This document shows, piece after piece, positions 11,818-20,590 of a stretch of 64,000 bases of DNA. Origin of the DNA: Armatimonadota bacterium (GTDB taxonomy: Bacteria; Armatimonadota; Fimbriimonadia; Fimbriimonadales; Fimbriimonadaceae); contig JACRPN010000006.1 of NCBI GenBank assembly GCA_016223145.1, forward strand, positions 1-64,000, given 5' to 3'. The notes below the pieces were generated by a model. The model had not been told where the DNA came from, searched no databases, and worked only from the letters and a program-made list of their open reading frames with translations. Positions within the stretch are counted from its first letter, which is position 1. Every line of letters starts with the position of its first letter. Position numbers and translations under genes: made by a program.

Positions 11818-12435
11818 CTATCGAAAGGTATTCTGATCGTCACAAAGGTCGAACAGGCCATCCTCGCCAGTCGTGGTGTAGGCATCGAAGTTCACAATTC
11901 TGCAGGATCTCAGCCGAAAGGACCGTACAGCAGTTACGAAACGATGAGAAAACACTTCCAGCTGAAGGTGCTTAGTGTGCGGCCCGACCCACACATCGCT
12001 TATCTCCGGGTCAAGACCTGTTACGACCGGCAGGCTGTATTCGTACCATTTGCCAAAAGCTGGCTCGCAATGCCGAAAGCAAAGGGAATTGAATTCAAAG
12101 GGAGTAACTACATACCAGTAGGTTAGCACTTCACCTCCTTTTGTTCGGACATCAGCAGGCCGATAGAGAATTCCCTTGACCAGCGCTTCTTCGAACGCAG
12201 CCTTTGCTTTCTGTGACAGCAGAAGTCCCATTGTGATCGGAGGGCACAGGAAGTCCGGGGGAGCCCCCTTTCCGAAGTACTCAAAAGGAGGATCGCCATT
12301 GCAGTTGAGCCAAGACACAGGATACAACCCTCGGCGTTGTCCCGTTTCTATCTCGTAGTCAGATTCAGAGTCGAACAGCTTAGTAACGTTGAATGACGAG
12401 TCACTAACTCCGAAGAAGCAGTGATACCAGTTCAT
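11818..12435 (-). CDS. Putative immunity protein for the RHS toxin
   Basis: 205 residues from ATG 12435, which overlaps the RHS stop as ATGA; the longer reading from 12453 is less likely. It has no signal peptide or membrane segment, so it is cytoplasmic. The composition is rich in aromatic residues and cysteine (MNWYHCFFGVSD, SWLNCNGD, FLCPP, LCFRHCEPAFGKWYEYS). I do not recognise the family with confidence; the LLLSQKAKAAFEEA..G..YRP segment recalls DUF1629/Imm11-like immunity proteins. The main argument is position: small, soluble, translationally coupled downstream of a polymorphic toxin. GC is low (43-52% in two hand-counted lines), consistent with horizontal transfer. Confidence 0.6.
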   Translation of the reverse strand: MNWYHCFFGVSDSSFNVTKLFDSESDYEIETGQRRGLYPVSWLNCNGDPPFEYFGKGAPPDFLCPPITMGLLLSQKAKAAFEEALVKGILYRPADVRTKGGEVLTYWYVVTPFEFNSLCFRHCEPAFGKWYEYSLPVVTGLDPEISDVWVGPHTKHLQLEVFSHRFVTAVRSFRLRSCRIVNFDAYTTTGEDGLFDLCDDQNTFR

Positions 12436-14030
12436 GACCCACCACCTCCGCACATAGCTCGCGCAAGATCATAGGCGTAGTCAAAGAAGTCCTTGAAGTC
12501 CGCCTTTGGATGATCTCGGAACCAATCCACGAGCCTTTGGCGATAGGCAACACTGAGCCTGCTATGTCGAGCCGGATCGACCCACATGCCATTGCACGGA
12601 TTTCGGAGAAATTCAATAAGCGCAGCCTCGCCTCCAGGAAATCCCCTAGCGAATCTTTCAATAACTGTCTCAGCCAACGAGACGGGGATGATATGGTGCG
12701 CAACTTCTCTTGCCTTTGAGGCCACGACTTTCCCCGATCGAGAGTTGAAACCGCCTCTCAAGATGTTGACTAGTTCATATCCTCGCTTGCCAACATACTT
12801 AGAGCCAGCCTTCGCGGCGCGAGCCACCCAAGATCCCGGAACGGCTGGCACGAGGATAGAAGCGCCACTCCAAAGAACATAGATACCGTTCATCAATGAG
12901 GGGCTCCTCGCAAACTCGGCAAGATCGTAGAAGAGACCAAGAATGTCGAGAGCTGTCTCGAACCAGTAGCCGCGTGGATCCACACGAACCAGTGGATTAT
13001 TCTGACAATAGGAATACCAGTTCCTGCCTTCTTTCGTCGGATCCCTTGTCAAAAACCTCCCGATACTGGAATCGTAATACCGGTGCCCCAGGAGCTTCAG
13101 GCCGGAGTCGTTGTCATCTTGGTAGCCGAAGGGGCCGCCGTAGCTGAAAGGTCCAACCCATGAACCAGAAGATGAGGTCAGATTGCCAAAGGCGTCGTAC
13201 TGTTTCGAGCTTGATACCGTCTGATTCGAAGCGGTTTGCCGCGTGTTGCTCTTGATACCGGCGTGCTGGTAAGTAGAGGTTCCCGACGAGCGCACCGAAG
13301 CCCCTGGCGTGAAGTTGCTGTTTCCGTCGCTGAGCAAGGGCGCCGTAACCCCTGCGCCATCGCGCTTGTACGTCCAAGGCTGAAGGTAACGATCCACCCT
13401 TCCAACTCTCGTATCGAGTCCATTGTAGGTAAAGGTGTTCGTGCCTCCACTGGGTATCTGCACCAGGGTCAGGCGATCCTCATAATCGTATGTCAACCAT
13501 GAGGTCCCCGAAGGCGTGGTCACACTCGTCATCCTGCCCGCTGCGTCGTAGCCGTAGTTCTTGTAGCCGCCGTTCCAGGTGACCGAGGTTAGCTTGTCGC
13601 CGGGGTCGTTCGAGTACGTTTCCACCAGACCGTTCACCGTCCTCGACGTTCGGTTTCCGTTGGCATCATAGGTATAGGACGCCGAATAGCCCGTCCTTGT
13701 CTCGGAGGTGAGCTGGTCGATATTGTCGTAGCCGTAGGTGGTCGAGACCCCGTCCTGCGTGTGGTTGGTTACGTTCGAGGCATTGTCGTAGGTATAGCTT
13801 TGGCTGGAGAGGGTGCTTCCGCCCGAGTTCTTGAGGAGGATCGAGTTCGGACGATTGCGGCTGTCGTAGCCGAAGGTCTCATAGGTACCGTTGCCGAAAT
13901 CCTTGCGCGAGAGCCTCTGCGAGGTGTCCCGCGTGAGCTGCGTGACCTCGCTGTAGGGGTTCGTGATCGTCACCTTGCGAAGGGCGTCGTTGTAGGCGTA
14001 GGTGGTGCTCCCCACCCCGATCTCGGTCAT
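12432..14030 (-). CDS. Short orphan RHS/YD-repeat protein with AHH-type nuclease tip
   Basis: 532 residues. About residues 1-330 are YD repeats (YTYDNASNVTNHTQDG, YTYDANGNRTSRTVNG, YGYDAAGRMTSVTTPSG). The RHS core ends with RFLTRDPTKEGRNWYSYCQNNPLVRVDPRGY near 335-365, after which the tip diverges. The tip contains EVAHHIIPVSLAE near 445, matching the AHH/HNH-like nuclease motif of polymorphic toxins. No secretion domain, PAAR or N-terminal RHS shell is present, so it is far shorter than intact RHS effectors. The codons just before the ATG still read AAGRRTS, as expected inside a YD repeat, before stops appear, suggesting a truncated 5' end near 14050. An overlapping immunity-like gene follows. 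Confidence 0.82.
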   Translation of the reverse strand: MTEIGVGSTTYAYNDALRKVTITNPYSEVTQLTRDTSQRLSRKDFGNGTYETFGYDSRNRPNSILLKNSGGSTLSSQSYTYDNASNVTNHTQDGVSTTYGYDNIDQLTSETRTGYSASYTYDANGNRTSRTVNGLVETYSNDPGDKLTSVTWNGGYKNYGYDAAGRMTSVTTPSGTSWLTYDYEDRLTLVQIPSGGTNTFTYNGLDTRVGRVDRYLQPWTYKRDGAGVTAPLLSDGNSNFTPGASVRSSGTSTYQHAGIKSNTRQTASNQTVSSSKQYDAFGNLTSSSGSWVGPFSYGGPFGYQDDNDSGLKLLGHRYYDSSIGRFLTRDPTKEGRNWYSYCQNNPLVRVDPRGYWFETALDILGLFYDLAEFARSPSLMNGIYVLWSGASILVPAVPGSWVARAAKAGSKYVGKRGYELVNILRGGFNSRSGKVVASKAREVAHHIIPVSLAETVIERFARGFPGGEAALIEFLRNPCNGMWVDPARHSRLSVAYRQRLVDWFRDHPKADFKDFFDYAYDLARAMCGGGGS

Positions 14031-15755: not shown

Positions 15756-16384
15756 ACGTCTGCCCCGACTCAAATTGTGAGTCGTTGAGAAAGAACTCGA
15801 CGAGGCGGGTGGGCCCGCTCTGCCTGCCCCCTCGTTCATCACCTGCCTTCGTGTGACCGCTTTCTGTGCGCCGCCCCAATCCTCTGGGTCGGGTAAACGT
15901 CATGGCGTTGTGCTCCGGGCCAAGCATCCGCTCTGAAGCAAGGTTGGCTCGCCCGTTAGGACTACTGGCGCCGACCTCCGGCCCGCGGATGGTCCTTTCC
16001 CAGAATTCCCAGGGCTGGCGCCCTGGGCTGATCACGGTTGGCCCTCCGGGCCTGCGGGGTGCGTAAATGTGTGGTGAGAGGTTGGTGGTTAGTGGTTGGT
16101 GAGTGATGTCCGTCCGGACCCCGGACATCTGGCCTACCCCGTACCTCAGTCTCTACACCCCCAGGACCCCGGACCCCCTCACCCCCGTTCGCTGCGCTCA
16201 CGGTCCCTCTCCCCAGGGGGAGAGGTGGTTTGCCGGAATCCAGACCCTGCACCCCAGACCCCAGACCCCCTCACCCCCGTTCGCTGCGCTCACGGTCCCT
16301 CTCCCCAGGGGGAGAGGTGGTTTGCCGGAATCCAGACCCTGCACCCCAGACCCCGGGCCCACAGCATGCGCCCGAAGACCTCCC
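15756..16384. other. Intergenic region with hairpin and tandem duplication
   Basis: No credible gene. A CGACTCA/TGAGTCG hairpin at 15766-15784 follows the secreted-protein gene. G/T-rich sequence runs near 16065-16110, and the 92-bp tandem duplication is listed separately. Confidence 0.5.
16172..16354. repeat. 92-bp tandem duplication with internal palindrome
   Basis: Two nearly identical 92-bp units start at 16172 and 16264. Each contains CCCCCGTTCGCTGCGCTCACGG followed by the palindromic CCTCTCCCCAGGGGGAGAGG. The palindrome resembles widespread REP-like intergenic repeats, and a related form occurs near 33490 (CCTCTTCCCTCGTGGGGGAGG). Confidence 0.85.
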
Positions 16385-17212
16385 TCACCCCTCTTTCAAT
16401 CCACTACTTGCCAGGCTTTCGACGATTTGCCGCTGGAACACGAAGAACACCACCAGCACCGGCAGGATCGAGATCAGCGCGCCTGCCATCTGGATGTTCT
16501 CATTGCCCGGGAAGCGGCCCTGCAGCATCGCGACCACCAAGGGCAGCGTGTACTTCTTCTCGTCTAGCAGGAAGATCAGCGGCCCCATAAAGCTGTTCCA
16601 GGAGCCAAGGAACGTCAGAATTGCCAGCGTCGCCAGAAGGGGCTTGCTGAGGGGCACGATGATCGAGCGGAAGATGCCCCACTCGCTGCAGCCCTCCAGC
16701 TTGGCGCACTCGATCAGGCTGTCGGGGATCTTGCCCACGAACTGTCTGGCCAAGAACACCCCGAACGCCCCCGCTAAGCCCGGCACGATCAGCGGCGTCC
16801 AGCTATCCAGCCATCCCAAATCGCGATAGAGCAGGAACGAGGGGATCAGGAGCACCGAACCCGGGATCATCATCGTCGAGAGGAGCATCAGGAAGATGCC
16901 GTTGCGCCCAGGGAAGCGGTGTTTGGCGAACGCATAGCCCGCCAATAGACAGAAAAACATGCTGCCGAACGTGAGCGGCAGGGCAATAAGGAAGCTGTTC
17001 CACGTGGCCTGGAGCACCAGTCCCGCGTCGAGCAGGTCGGTGTAGGGCTTGACGGTGGGCTGCTTGACGAACAGGCTGACTACGGGCTCGGCGGCCTCTG
17101 TATTCGACTTCAGCGAGGTCACCACCATGTAATAGAAGGGCAAGGCCATCATCAGCCGGCCGAGGGTCAGGAAGAGGTAGCTGAACACACGTTCGGCGCG
17201 GCTCTTTCTCAT
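16385..17212 (-). CDS. Carbohydrate ABC transporter permease, MalG type
   Basis: 275 residues from ATG 17212, with a GGAG site; a longer reading from 17305 adds repeat-derived sequence. It is an inner-membrane subunit of a CUT1-type ABC importer with about six membrane segments (first LGRLMMALPFYYMVVTSLK). The cytoplasmic EAA loop is visible as LIECAKLEGCSEWGIFRSIIVPLSKPLL, which contacts the ATPase. It lies downstream of the fused binding protein/permease gene and should pair with it. No ATPase (MalK) gene is nearby; such transporters often share one encoded elsewhere. The substrate is not predictable. Confidence 0.9.
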   Translation of the reverse strand: MRKSRAERVFSYLFLTLGRLMMALPFYYMVVTSLKSNTEAAEPVVSLFVKQPTVKPYTDLLDAGLVLQATWNSFLIALPLTFGSMFFCLLAGYAFAKHRFPGRNGIFLMLLSTMMIPGSVLLIPSFLLYRDLGWLDSWTPLIVPGLAGAFGVFLARQFVGKIPDSLIECAKLEGCSEWGIFRSIIVPLSKPLLATLAILTFLGSWNSFMGPLIFLLDEKKYTLPLVVAMLQGRFPGNENIQMAGALISILPVLVVFFVFQRQIVESLASSGLKEG

Positions 17213-17396
17213 CGTGTAGCTCCGGTGGAATCGTTCTGCGACCCCTTCGGGGACGGGTAATTGGGAATGTGGCTCGTAGCCCGGGGTCTCGCTTCGCTCG
17301 ACCACCGGCTATCGTTCTTCGACCCCTCCGGGGTCTCAAGACGAGCGATTCCGAGGCACGGGAGGAATCCGACTCTCGATCTGGCTTGGCTCGGCC
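17213..17396. repeat. Short palindromic GACCCC..GGGGTC repeats between permease genes
   Basis: The stretch contains GACCCCTTCGGGG near 17239 and the perfect palindrome GACCCCTCCGGGGTC near 17320, each preceded by CGTTCT, plus GGGGTCTCGCTTCGCTCGACC. These look like dispersed short palindromic elements inserted in the operon. Confidence 0.55.
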
Positions 17397-19904
17397 TCAT
17401 TCCCCCTCTCCCCCTCTGCGTCGGTAGACCCGGAACTGAACCGCCGTGAGCACCAGGATCATGGCGAACATCACATAGGCGATCGCCGCCGACTTGCCCA
17501 TCTCGTAGGTCTCAAAGCCGTTGTGGTAAATCAGCGGAACCAGGGTGAGCGCGGAGTCGTTCGGGCCGAACCGCGCTCCGGCGTCGCCGCTCTTGTTGGC
17601 CATCATGTAGATCGGTTCGAACACCTGGAAAGCCCCGATGAGCCCCAGTACGCTGATGAAGAACACCTGAGGCCGGATCCCCGGCAACGCGATGTTCCAG
17701 AATCGGCGAACCGCACCCGCCCCATCGACCTCGGCGGCCTCGAAGAGTTGAGCCGGAATCTGCTGAAGCCCCGCCACGAAGATGAGCACATTGAACGCCA
17801 GCCCGTGCCAGATCGCGAGCACGATCACGCACTGAAGGAAGGTCTTCTCGCTTTGAAGGAACGGAGCGGGGTCCTTAAGTACGCCCAGGTTCATCAGCGC
17901 CGCGTTCAGCCAGCCCTGGGGCCCGCTAAGGAAGAGCTGTGAGAAGATGAGCGCGATGCTGACCACGCTGGTCACCAAGGGAGAGAAGTAAAGGAACCGC
18001 CAGAACTTCTCGCCCCTCGGCTTGCCGTAGAGCAGATAGGCGAAGAAAAGCGAGATCATGATGCCGATCGGCACGGTTAGAAGCGCATAGTAAGCGCTGC
18101 GGAAGGTCGCCGAACCCAGGTCGCCGCTCTCTTTGGCCTGAACGTAGTTGTGCGCTCCAGTCCAGCTCGCGGTCGAGAGCGGCAGCACAGGGTGGTACTC
18201 GGTGAAGGAGAGGTAAAGAGCTGTGACCGCCGGCACGAACACGAACACCACCGCCAGCACCACCGGTGCCGCGATGAAGAGGTAGCTCCATCCGTGCTTC
18301 CTAAGGCGTGGCGCGAGCCCGACCATGAACAGCGCAACCCCAAGCAGCCCCACCGCCGACCACTTCACGACGTCGAGCACGCTGGACCGCCGCTCGTAAT
18401 CAGGGAGGTCGCGCACCACATTTCCGAAGCGGGTCTCATACCGGGCCGTTTCCTTTTCGACGATGGCTTTTGCCTTCGGTGCGATGTCTCTGTAGCTTGA
18501 TTCGAGCTTGGAACGAATCGCGTTGTCGAGCGCCTGCCGCTCCTTGGCGTATCTCCCGGCGCCCATAGCCTCGATCATCTTGGTGCGCGTGGTGCCGAGC
18601 CTCGCAGCCAGGGCATCTTGCCGGTCGCGGATGAAGGTCTGCATCTGGTCGAGCAGGTTGGCTTCGAGCCGGTTGGCCTCAGCAGCGCCGTTGATGCTCG
18701 GCGCCGTGTCAAACGAGGCATAGGTCTTGCGCAGCACCTCGATCAGCCTTTGGCTGCCTTTGAACTCGGCGCGCCGCCAAAAGGCGGCATTGGAGGGCCC
18801 CCAGAACTCCCGCAGCGGTGAGATCGCCATGTTGCTTTGCTCCCCGCGGCTCATCCGGTCCAGCGTCATCGCCTGCTGAGCCTCCATGGAGTTCATGTAT
18901 TCCAGCCATCGCATGGCCTGGCGCTTCTTGGCGGATTTGCGAAAGACGACGTAGGCCGTCCCGCCCATGATGTTGAACGCCTTGCCATCATCGGCCCGGG
19001 GCCAGGGCGCGATGTCCCACTTGCCTGCGACTTCGGGTGCGGTGAGCCTGATGCTGTCGAAGTTCGTATGCAGTTCAAAGAAAAGCGGGACCGCAAGGCT
19101 CCGGTCGTTGGAGCGGAACATCCCGATGACGCGGCTGCTGAGGTCCTTGCCCGGCGAGTTGTGGGTGTGCCATAGGCGCATCGCCTGGTGGACGCCGTCG
19201 AGGTACCTCGGTTGGGTCCAGTTGACCTTCAGTGTGCCATCCGTTTCGAGTTTGAAGCCGGTGAGCCCATAGGGCTGGGTGTAGAGCCCGATCGCCCACT
19301 GGGCATACGCTGGGAAGCCGAAATAATAGCGGTACCGGTTCGCCTCCAGGACGTCGATGACGCGGTTCAGTTCGGACCACGTCGCAGGAGGCTGCAGACC
19401 CAACCGGCGGAACACGTCCGTCCGGTAGAACATGATCATCGTCGAGAGGTCGTGCGGTATGCCGTAGAGCCGCTCGCCGGCGGCAAAGATCGTCAGCAGT
19501 CCGGGCGGGAACTTGGCTTCGAGGCGTTTCGTCTCTTCGGGAAACTCCGTCCTCAGGTCCACGACGCCGCCGACAGCGCCGTAATCGAACGGCCCTCCCA
19601 GGTTGGTCACACCTATGTCCGGCGGAAGCCCGGCCGCCATCGCTGCGAAGTACTTGGTGGCAAAGCTCCCCCAGGCGAGAGGCGTCACGTTGACGTGGAT
19701 GCCGGTCTTCGCTTCAAACCTGTCGGCGAGTCCCCGATACATCCGCACGTCGAGCACGCTGCCCGTCACGGCCCAGAAGTTGATGGACTCCTTTGCCGGG
19801 CCGGCTAATCCCAATGCGCTCAGCCCCAAGAGCAGCGCGACAATCCAAGCGCGCACCTTCGGCGCCCTTGTTACCCGCTGAGTTGGGTCTGGCCAGTGCC
19901 CCAC
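17397..19904 (-). CDS. Fused solute-binding protein and MalF-type permease
   Basis: 835 residues from GTG 19904. After a signal-anchor (VRAWIVALLLGLSALGLAG), residues about 35-380 are a family-1 extracellular solute-binding protein (VLDVRMYRGLADRFEAKTGI, MAAGLPPDIGVTN, GIPHDLSTMIMFYRTDVF). A helical region with LDQMQTFIRDRQDALAARLG spans about 420-515. Membrane segments start near 520 (DVVKWSAVGLLGVALFMVG) and continue as a MalF/UgpA-type permease with an EAA loop EAAEVDGAGAVRRFWNIALPGIRP. Binding proteins and permeases are normally separate. The reading frame is continuous through the junction. It lies 184 bp upstream of the MalG-type gene. Confidence 0.88.
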   Translation of the reverse strand: MGHWPDPTQRVTRAPKVRAWIVALLLGLSALGLAGPAKESINFWAVTGSVLDVRMYRGLADRFEAKTGIHVNVTPLAWGSFATKYFAAMAAGLPPDIGVTNLGGPFDYGAVGGVVDLRTEFPEETKRLEAKFPPGLLTIFAAGERLYGIPHDLSTMIMFYRTDVFRRLGLQPPATWSELNRVIDVLEANRYRYYFGFPAYAQWAIGLYTQPYGLTGFKLETDGTLKVNWTQPRYLDGVHQAMRLWHTHNSPGKDLSSRVIGMFRSNDRSLAVPLFFELHTNFDSIRLTAPEVAGKWDIAPWPRADDGKAFNIMGGTAYVVFRKSAKKRQAMRWLEYMNSMEAQQAMTLDRMSRGEQSNMAISPLREFWGPSNAAFWRRAEFKGSQRLIEVLRKTYASFDTAPSINGAAEANRLEANLLDQMQTFIRDRQDALAARLGTTRTKMIEAMGAGRYAKERQALDNAIRSKLESSYRDIAPKAKAIVEKETARYETRFGNVVRDLPDYERRSSVLDVVKWSAVGLLGVALFMVGLAPRLRKHGWSYLFIAAPVVLAVVFVFVPAVTALYLSFTEYHPVLPLSTASWTGAHNYVQAKESGDLGSATFRSAYYALLTVPIGIMISLFFAYLLYGKPRGEKFWRFLYFSPLVTSVVSIALIFSQLFLSGPQGWLNAALMNLGVLKDPAPFLQSEKTFLQCVIVLAIWHGLAFNVLIFVAGLQQIPAQLFEAAEVDGAGAVRRFWNIALPGIRPQVFFISVLGLIGAFQVFEPIYMMANKSGDAGARFGPNDSALTLVPLIYHNGFETYEMGKSAAIAYVMFAMILVLTAVQFRVYRRRGGEGE

Positions 19905-19946: not shown

Positions 19947-19983
19947 CAAAAGGCCCGGCCGGTCTTTTGAACCAGCCGGACCC
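19947..19983 (-). terminator. Terminator of the 20009-20590 PEP-CTERM gene
   Basis: On the minus strand, GGTCCGGCTGG pairs with CCGGCCGGGCC (G-U pairs allowed) around TTCAAAAGA and is followed by TTTTGC. It starts 26 bp after the stop codon. Confidence 0.7.
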
Positions 19984-20008
19984 AACAGGATCCGAAGAAG
20001 ATCGGATT

Positions 20009-20590
20009 CTATTTGCGGCGTCGGACCACGGCCAAGAGACCGAGGCCGAGGACGGCCATCGAAGCAGGCTCGGGCACCGGGTGTATGAGCATGTTGGGAC
20101 CCCACCAGCCATCGCCGCCGGCCGTTCCGCCGCCGCCCGTCGGGGCAACGAGGGTCGCGCTGGCACTGTAGGCGTCGGTCACGAAGGCGATGTTCGGGTC
20201 CGTGTAGAAGCCCGACGTGGCCCACGTGTAGTTGTCGATACCCGTCGTCGAAGCGATCATGTATCGGCCGGCGGCCAGATACAGCGGGGTGATCGAGGCA
20301 TACCGGAAGTGGCCCAAGAGCGTGTCGCTGCTGGTCACCGTGGTGGAGGCCAACAGATTGCTGCTCATGTCAAAGATTCCCACGTCCTGGGAGCCCGACA
20401 GGAAGCCGTCGCCGTTATCGTCGTACGAACCGAGCGCATAGACGCTGACCGGATTCAAGACGTCGAACTGGCAGCCGAGGCTCCAGTAGCCGTTCGTGTA
20501 GTTGATGCTGATGCCGCTGAACTCCCAAGCCTGCCCAAAGGCGCTGGAAGCTGCAACAGCTGCAAGGCTAATCAAAGCGAGTTTCTTCAT
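20009..20590 (-). CDS. PEP-CTERM secreted protein
   Basis: 193 residues from ATG 20590, preceded by AGGAAAGGA; longer readings are unlikely. It has a signal peptide (KLALISLAAVAASSAFG), a beta-rich domain and a C-terminal PEP-CTERM signal VPEPASMAVLGLGLLAVV then RRRK. The middle (YALGSYDDNGDGFLSGSQDVGIFDM) resembles other PEP-CTERM exoproteins with a short DxDGDGF-like, possibly Ca-binding, loop. It is the second such protein in the window. It is monocistronic, with its own terminator. Function unknown; probably exported to the surface or extracellular matrix. Confidence 0.88.
   Translation of the reverse strand: MKKLALISLAAVAASSAFGQAWEFSGISINYTNGYWSLGCQFDVLNPVSVYALGSYDDNGDGFLSGSQDVGIFDMSSNLLASTTVTSSDTLLGHFRYASITPLYLAAGRYMIASTTGIDNYTWATSGFYTDPNIAFVTDAYSASATLVAPTGGGGTAGGDGWWGPNMLIHPVPEPASMAVLGLGLLAVVRRRK

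Follow-up and report, generated by a model that had tools for sequence, protein, structure and literature searches.

Does the frame at 17397-19904 encode a solute-binding protein (SBP) and an ABC permease as a genuine single chain and, if so, how would such a chain take part in import when its own locus holds no ATPase gene? The window (the whole 64,000-nucleotide stretch of DNA analysed) was compared with related loci at the level of domains, predicted structure and phylogeny.

A receptor and a permease in one reading frame

The frame lies on the minus strand, where it runs uninterrupted for 835 residues and encodes an SBP followed by a permease of the UgpA/MalF type that has an EAA loop. Over the same interval of the plus strand, the frame read contains stops. 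The sequence-only reading had described one continuous SBP-permease frame without stating its strand, and with the strand assigned this description holds. The features of the locus, all on the minus strand, are as follows.

17397-19904, minus strand: SBP-MalF fusion gene, 835 aa, GTG start at 19904, stop codon 17397-17399
19794-19904, minus strand: residues 1-37, an N-terminal signal sequence or possibly an anchor left uncleaved, with a hydrophobic segment at residue 19
18450-19793, minus strand: extracytoplasmic solute-binding domain, residues 38 to about 485 (SBP_bac_1 / SBP_bac_8), from Pfam and structure comparison
18381-18449, minus strand: short link, residues about 486-508 (end of a long helix, 453-498, plus a turn), from the model and the end of the SBP alignments
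18312-18380, minus strand: extra membrane helix, residues about 509-531, then a basic loop (PRLRKH), from the model and hydrophobicity
17400-18311, minus strand: MalF/UgpA-type permease domain, residues 532-835, six hydrophobic segments, from BPD_transp_1 and the UgpA model
17670-17741, minus strand: EAA loop, residues 722-745, expected contact site for a MalK ATPase, from invariant residues
17213-17396, minus strand: spacer of 184 nt between the fusion and malG; the genes touch or overlap in most orthologous loci
16385-17212, minus strand: partner permease of the MalG/UgpE type, 275 aa counted from the ATG at 17212 (listed ORF, 16385-17305)

A Pfam search of the translation, the check proposed with the sequence-only reading, found in one chain and in order SBP_bac_1 from residue 58 (E 1.2e-25, above the curated cut-off), SBP_bac_8 at 59-347 and BPD_transp_1 at 614-829 (E 1.8e-15). 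Of the NCBIfam models, UgpA comes closest to the permease part (E 6.9e-36, under the curated cut-off of that model), and the SBP part weakly resembles UgpB. The EAA loop, which in MalFGK2 forms the contact with the ATPase, is present as had been claimed; its residues E722, A723, A724, D727, G728, A729 and P741 are invariant in 13/13 aligned sequences. The choice of start codon is uncertain, and the N-termini of the orthologues differ. Weak promoter-like and terminator-like matches occur around 19951-20035.

The junction and its predicted topology

A structure model of the fusion built from 13 sequences (mean pLDDT 68, pTM 0.61) has a largely well predicted SBP and a poorly predicted permease, with residues 629-693 and 763-802 under 50 pLDDT. 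In structure alignments of this model the SBP fold begins at about residue 37 and ends at about 483-493. Hence, the helical linker of the sequence-only reading is mostly made of the C-terminal helices of the SBP itself, and gives way to a short link (about 486-508) and an added membrane helix.

This added helix recurs across the phylum. One hydrophobic segment separates SBP and permease in 53 of the 58 fused frames scanned, that of the window included, and the count rises to 55 once two late signal sequences past the cut-off are discounted; the other three have no extra segment above threshold. The loop that follows carries a net charge of +2 to +6 in all 55 fused frames that could be measured. 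A UgpA-type permease begins at the cytoplasmic side. With the end of the SBP outside and the start of the permease inside, an extra membrane helix is needed, and the helix at 509-531 would return the chain to the cytoplasmic side. The tethering of the receptor on the outer face, as originally suggested, is thus supported as a predicted topology. In the proposed sequence of events the N-terminal signal would export the chain and the SBP domain would fold on the outer face of the inner membrane, after which the short link and the added helix would bring the chain inside, ahead of the six-helix MalF-type domain.

It could be argued that the chain is cut between SBP and permease after synthesis, leaving the receptor free or anchored by its signal, so that fusion would serve equal synthesis and not tethering. 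The N-terminus is indeed signal-like, and mean identity is lower at the junction (41% for residues 401-508, 31% for the extra helix) than in the SBP (54% for 38-400) or the permease (66%). Against this, the membrane segment and the positive inner loop are kept in 55/58 fused frames, including groups that lie apart on the trees, and none of 17 unfused SBP ORFs has such a C-terminal segment. We therefore consider cleavage improbable and retain the tethered receptor as the preferred reading.

Two further ideas about the junction were rejected. An origin of the extra helix in an anchor at the C-terminus of the SBP is not borne out, the same 17 unfused ORFs having no such anchor, and a linker of constant length acting as a rigid stalk is not distinctive, since 568 of 690 stretches of the same size show no length changes either across the 13 sequences.

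Partner permease, ATPase and ligand

The ATG at 17212 is the likely start of malG, seven other aligned orthologues beginning near the equivalent point. The encoded MalG is conserved at 65-76% identity to its orthologues. The sequence-only reading had a MalG partner following the fusion; the gene is found at 16385-17212 and lies 3' of the fusion in all 12 named full-length loci (L087-L098). Two minor observations concern the flanks of malG. A 20-base piece of the 17213-17396 spacer has only two other occurrences in the genome, with two mismatches each. Just after malG, at 16160-16343 of the window, are two tandem 92-nt copies (97% identical), each with a GC-rich self-complementary stretch.

No ATPase gene is present beside the fusion or malG, so the earlier statement that an ATPase is missing is correct for the locus. 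It does not extend to the genome, which contains one OB_MalK match, a 388-residue ATPase on contig 5 (C5:194071), away from the fusion locus. Exactly one such match per genome is found in 37/37 genomes of family group f1, to which the window's genome belongs, one of the 37 (G035) falling under the curated cut-off. The window's genome has 11 MalF-like matches, four of them in fused frames. On these counts, the single MalK-type ATPase is presumably common to the CUT1 systems of the genome.

The CUT1 assignment is based on an SBP_bac_1 receptor, two different BPD_transp_1 permeases with EAA loops, and an OB-domain MalK encoded in the genome. We regard it as highly likely that the fusion forms a CUT1-type importer, with its receptor tethered to MalF, paired with MalG and served by the genome's MalK for the uptake of an oligosaccharide-like solute. 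In such a complex the fusion would pair with MalG, and both EAA loops would recruit the cell's single MalK-type ATPase. The tethered SBP would bind ligand and dock on its own MalF and on MalG, with MalK powering transport. The one-to-one receptor:transporter stoichiometry would follow from the single chain. Because a tethered receptor cannot diffuse away, one receptor per transporter should suffice and no excess would be needed; the cost of the tether would be the lack of a soluble receptor pool.

Since no ATPase is encoded alongside, the receptor-permease might instead have a signalling role or have lost transport altogether, and the 184-nt spacer ahead of malG in the window's genome points the same way. 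However, the EAA loop of the fusion is intact, MalG is conserved and one MalK-type ATPase is present in every one of the 37 f1 genomes. A signalling or defunct system accordingly appears somewhat less probable even than cleavage, and an active importer using a distant MalK remains the reading we prefer.

With regard to the ligand, the best structural match of the SBP fold is 5ysb, a beta-1,2-glucooligosaccharide receptor (Z 30.0, rmsd 3.5, 380 aligned residues). Many other sugar receptors lie within a few Z units of it, so the fold match picks no one ligand. The structure search did not show the permease fold, its match list being taken up by the SBP domain. An oligosaccharide or similar glycoside is most likely, as judged from the structure matches. 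No sugar pathway was found among the genes adjoining the fusion, where ORFs read as pyruvate:ferredoxin oxidoreductase-like, FlhA-like and pilus genes. An RHS/YD-repeat-like ORF, again by reading of the ORF, lies at 12432-14030 on the minus strand of the window.

Distribution and repeated joining or splitting

Full-length fused orthologues number 15, in 13 of 291 Armatimonadota genomes (a count for which about three matches were scored per genome), with open frames of 818-1083 residues and no internal stop. Three further genomes hold only pieces of the fusion, those of G161 being spread over two contigs. In named genomes 16 loci were detected, comprising 12 full-length fusions, two partial ones and two loci from other phyla. 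Records of the full-length and partial loci are titled Fimbriimonadaceae, Fimbriimonas, Armatimonadetes or Chthonomonas, and NCBI taxonomy places Fimbriimonadaceae within Armatimonadota. The permease part is 59-73% identical to that of 12 orthologues. An assembly or frame error joining two genes is so improbable that we take it as ruled out, because full-length fused orthologues occur in 13 genomes and 12 of the full-length fusions are in named records. The sequence-only reading had made its case depend on there being no frameshift at the junction and on homologues not always being split there, and these orthologues uphold it on both counts.

In the two loci from outside Armatimonadota (Paenibacillus, L101, and a betaproteobacterial MAG, L102), the orthologous region has separate SBP and permease genes. 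None of 2446 plasmid records with a match covers 80% of the query in one place. Among the matches listed, 25 plasmid rows were inspected: most name receptor and permease separately, some carry no feature and one has a receptor only.

Within the phylum, SBP_bac_1 and BPD_transp_1 were both detected in 58/58 long frames scanned; as these frames were chosen for length, the figure confirms their identity and not how common fusions are. Fused frames occur in nine family groups (f1, f2, f3, f10, f11, f12, f13, f16 and f34). Two more SBP-MalF fusions were seen in the window's genome, at L009:5755-8247 and L011:5895-8426, with no adjacent MalG among the listed ORFs. A 764-residue ORF of the same genome (L012) was rejected as an SBP fusion, being an over-long ORF in which the real SBP starts internally with a lipoprotein-like signal.

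A permease tree was built from 78 rows, omitting matches under 85 bits as well as L122 and L131, which repeat L141 and L142. The window's group of seven joins four unfused permeases (100/91), apart from the main fused groups. The fused label needs five changes on this tree, of which starred branches force three. For the AU test 36 of the 78 rows were selected manually; the omitted rows include those with long branches, L137, L015, L101, L011 and L057 (first ORF). On the 36-row tree four changes of the label are needed, two of them forced by starred branches, and placing all fused rows in one clade costs 33.8 log units (AU p 0.003). Furthermore, starred branches force three changes on an SBP tree of 41 rows, from which L102 was dropped and in which fused rows were picked by locus; this tree has long branches and a weak root. 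Rejection of a single fused clade implies more than one event of joining or splitting between receptor and permease, be it by fusion, fission or both, and the change counts do not separate gain from loss.

A receptor-MalF fusion as such is already published, the protein reportedly originating from Bdellovibrio bacteriovorus. According to the passage of the review PMC7756565 that cites Licht et al. 2019 (Res Microbiol 170:1-12, doi 10.1016/j.resmic.2018.08.006), it is a maltose transporter in which MalF carries one fused MalE domain. The present fusion resembles that protein, as described there, in having a single solute-binding domain fused to MalF in a CUT1-type importer, and differs in lineage (Armatimonadota) and in that the published protein is a maltose/maltodextrin transporter. 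It shares with MalEFGK2 and UgpABCE a family 1 SBP, UgpA- and UgpE-like permeases, EAA loops and an OB-domain MalK; unlike those systems, it carries the receptor in the permease chain and an extra helix before the permease, and its ATPase gene is far off. In importers of the OpuA and GlnPQ type the receptor, an OpuAC or SBP_bac_3 domain, is likewise covalently part of the membrane subunit. The fusion here has only SBP_bac_1/SBP_bac_8 by Pfam, and its separate MalG implies one receptor per complex, compared with two or four in the OpuA/GlnPQ type.

Literature searches, with most subscription journals outside their scope, found no paper on the fusion in Armatimonadota, and the available sections of the F. 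ginsengisoli genome paper (PMC4072686) and of PMC4959169 make no mention of it. The breadth of the fusion in Armatimonadota and its repeated origin were thus not found in print. The fusion is ordinary in mechanism and moderately interesting in its distribution. Its occurrence suggests that many systems of one phylum can do without the surplus of receptor that CUT1 importers usually have. Structural and single-molecule studies would gain natural one-to-one receptor-transporter chains that hold the complex together, and with fusion or fission repeated inside a single phylum, the selection behind tethering becomes a question that can be addressed. More tentatively, and with the balance somewhat against it, tethered CUT1 importers may have arisen repeatedly in Armatimonadota, each gaining the extra helix, and have become a main sugar-import design of Fimbriimonadaceae with one common ATPase; in the other large fused group, a large outer domain inserted in MalG may dock the tethered receptor.

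In that other group (L013:8006-9736, L051:5608-7332 and similar), the ORF of the partner MalG is long, often about 520-600 aa. It has additional hydrophobic stretches at its N-terminus, and an insert follows the first permease helix; Pfam gave no named domain for these parts in the two members scanned. MalG ORFs of at least 450 aa occur in 25 of 40 loci fetched, where starts are unrefined and some ORFs over-long. The window's genome also has a lone 522-aa MalG (L014:5781-7349) whose insert, some 200 residues long, is a different one and shows a faint likeness to glycoside hydrolase 42 (E 0.04, under the cut-off).
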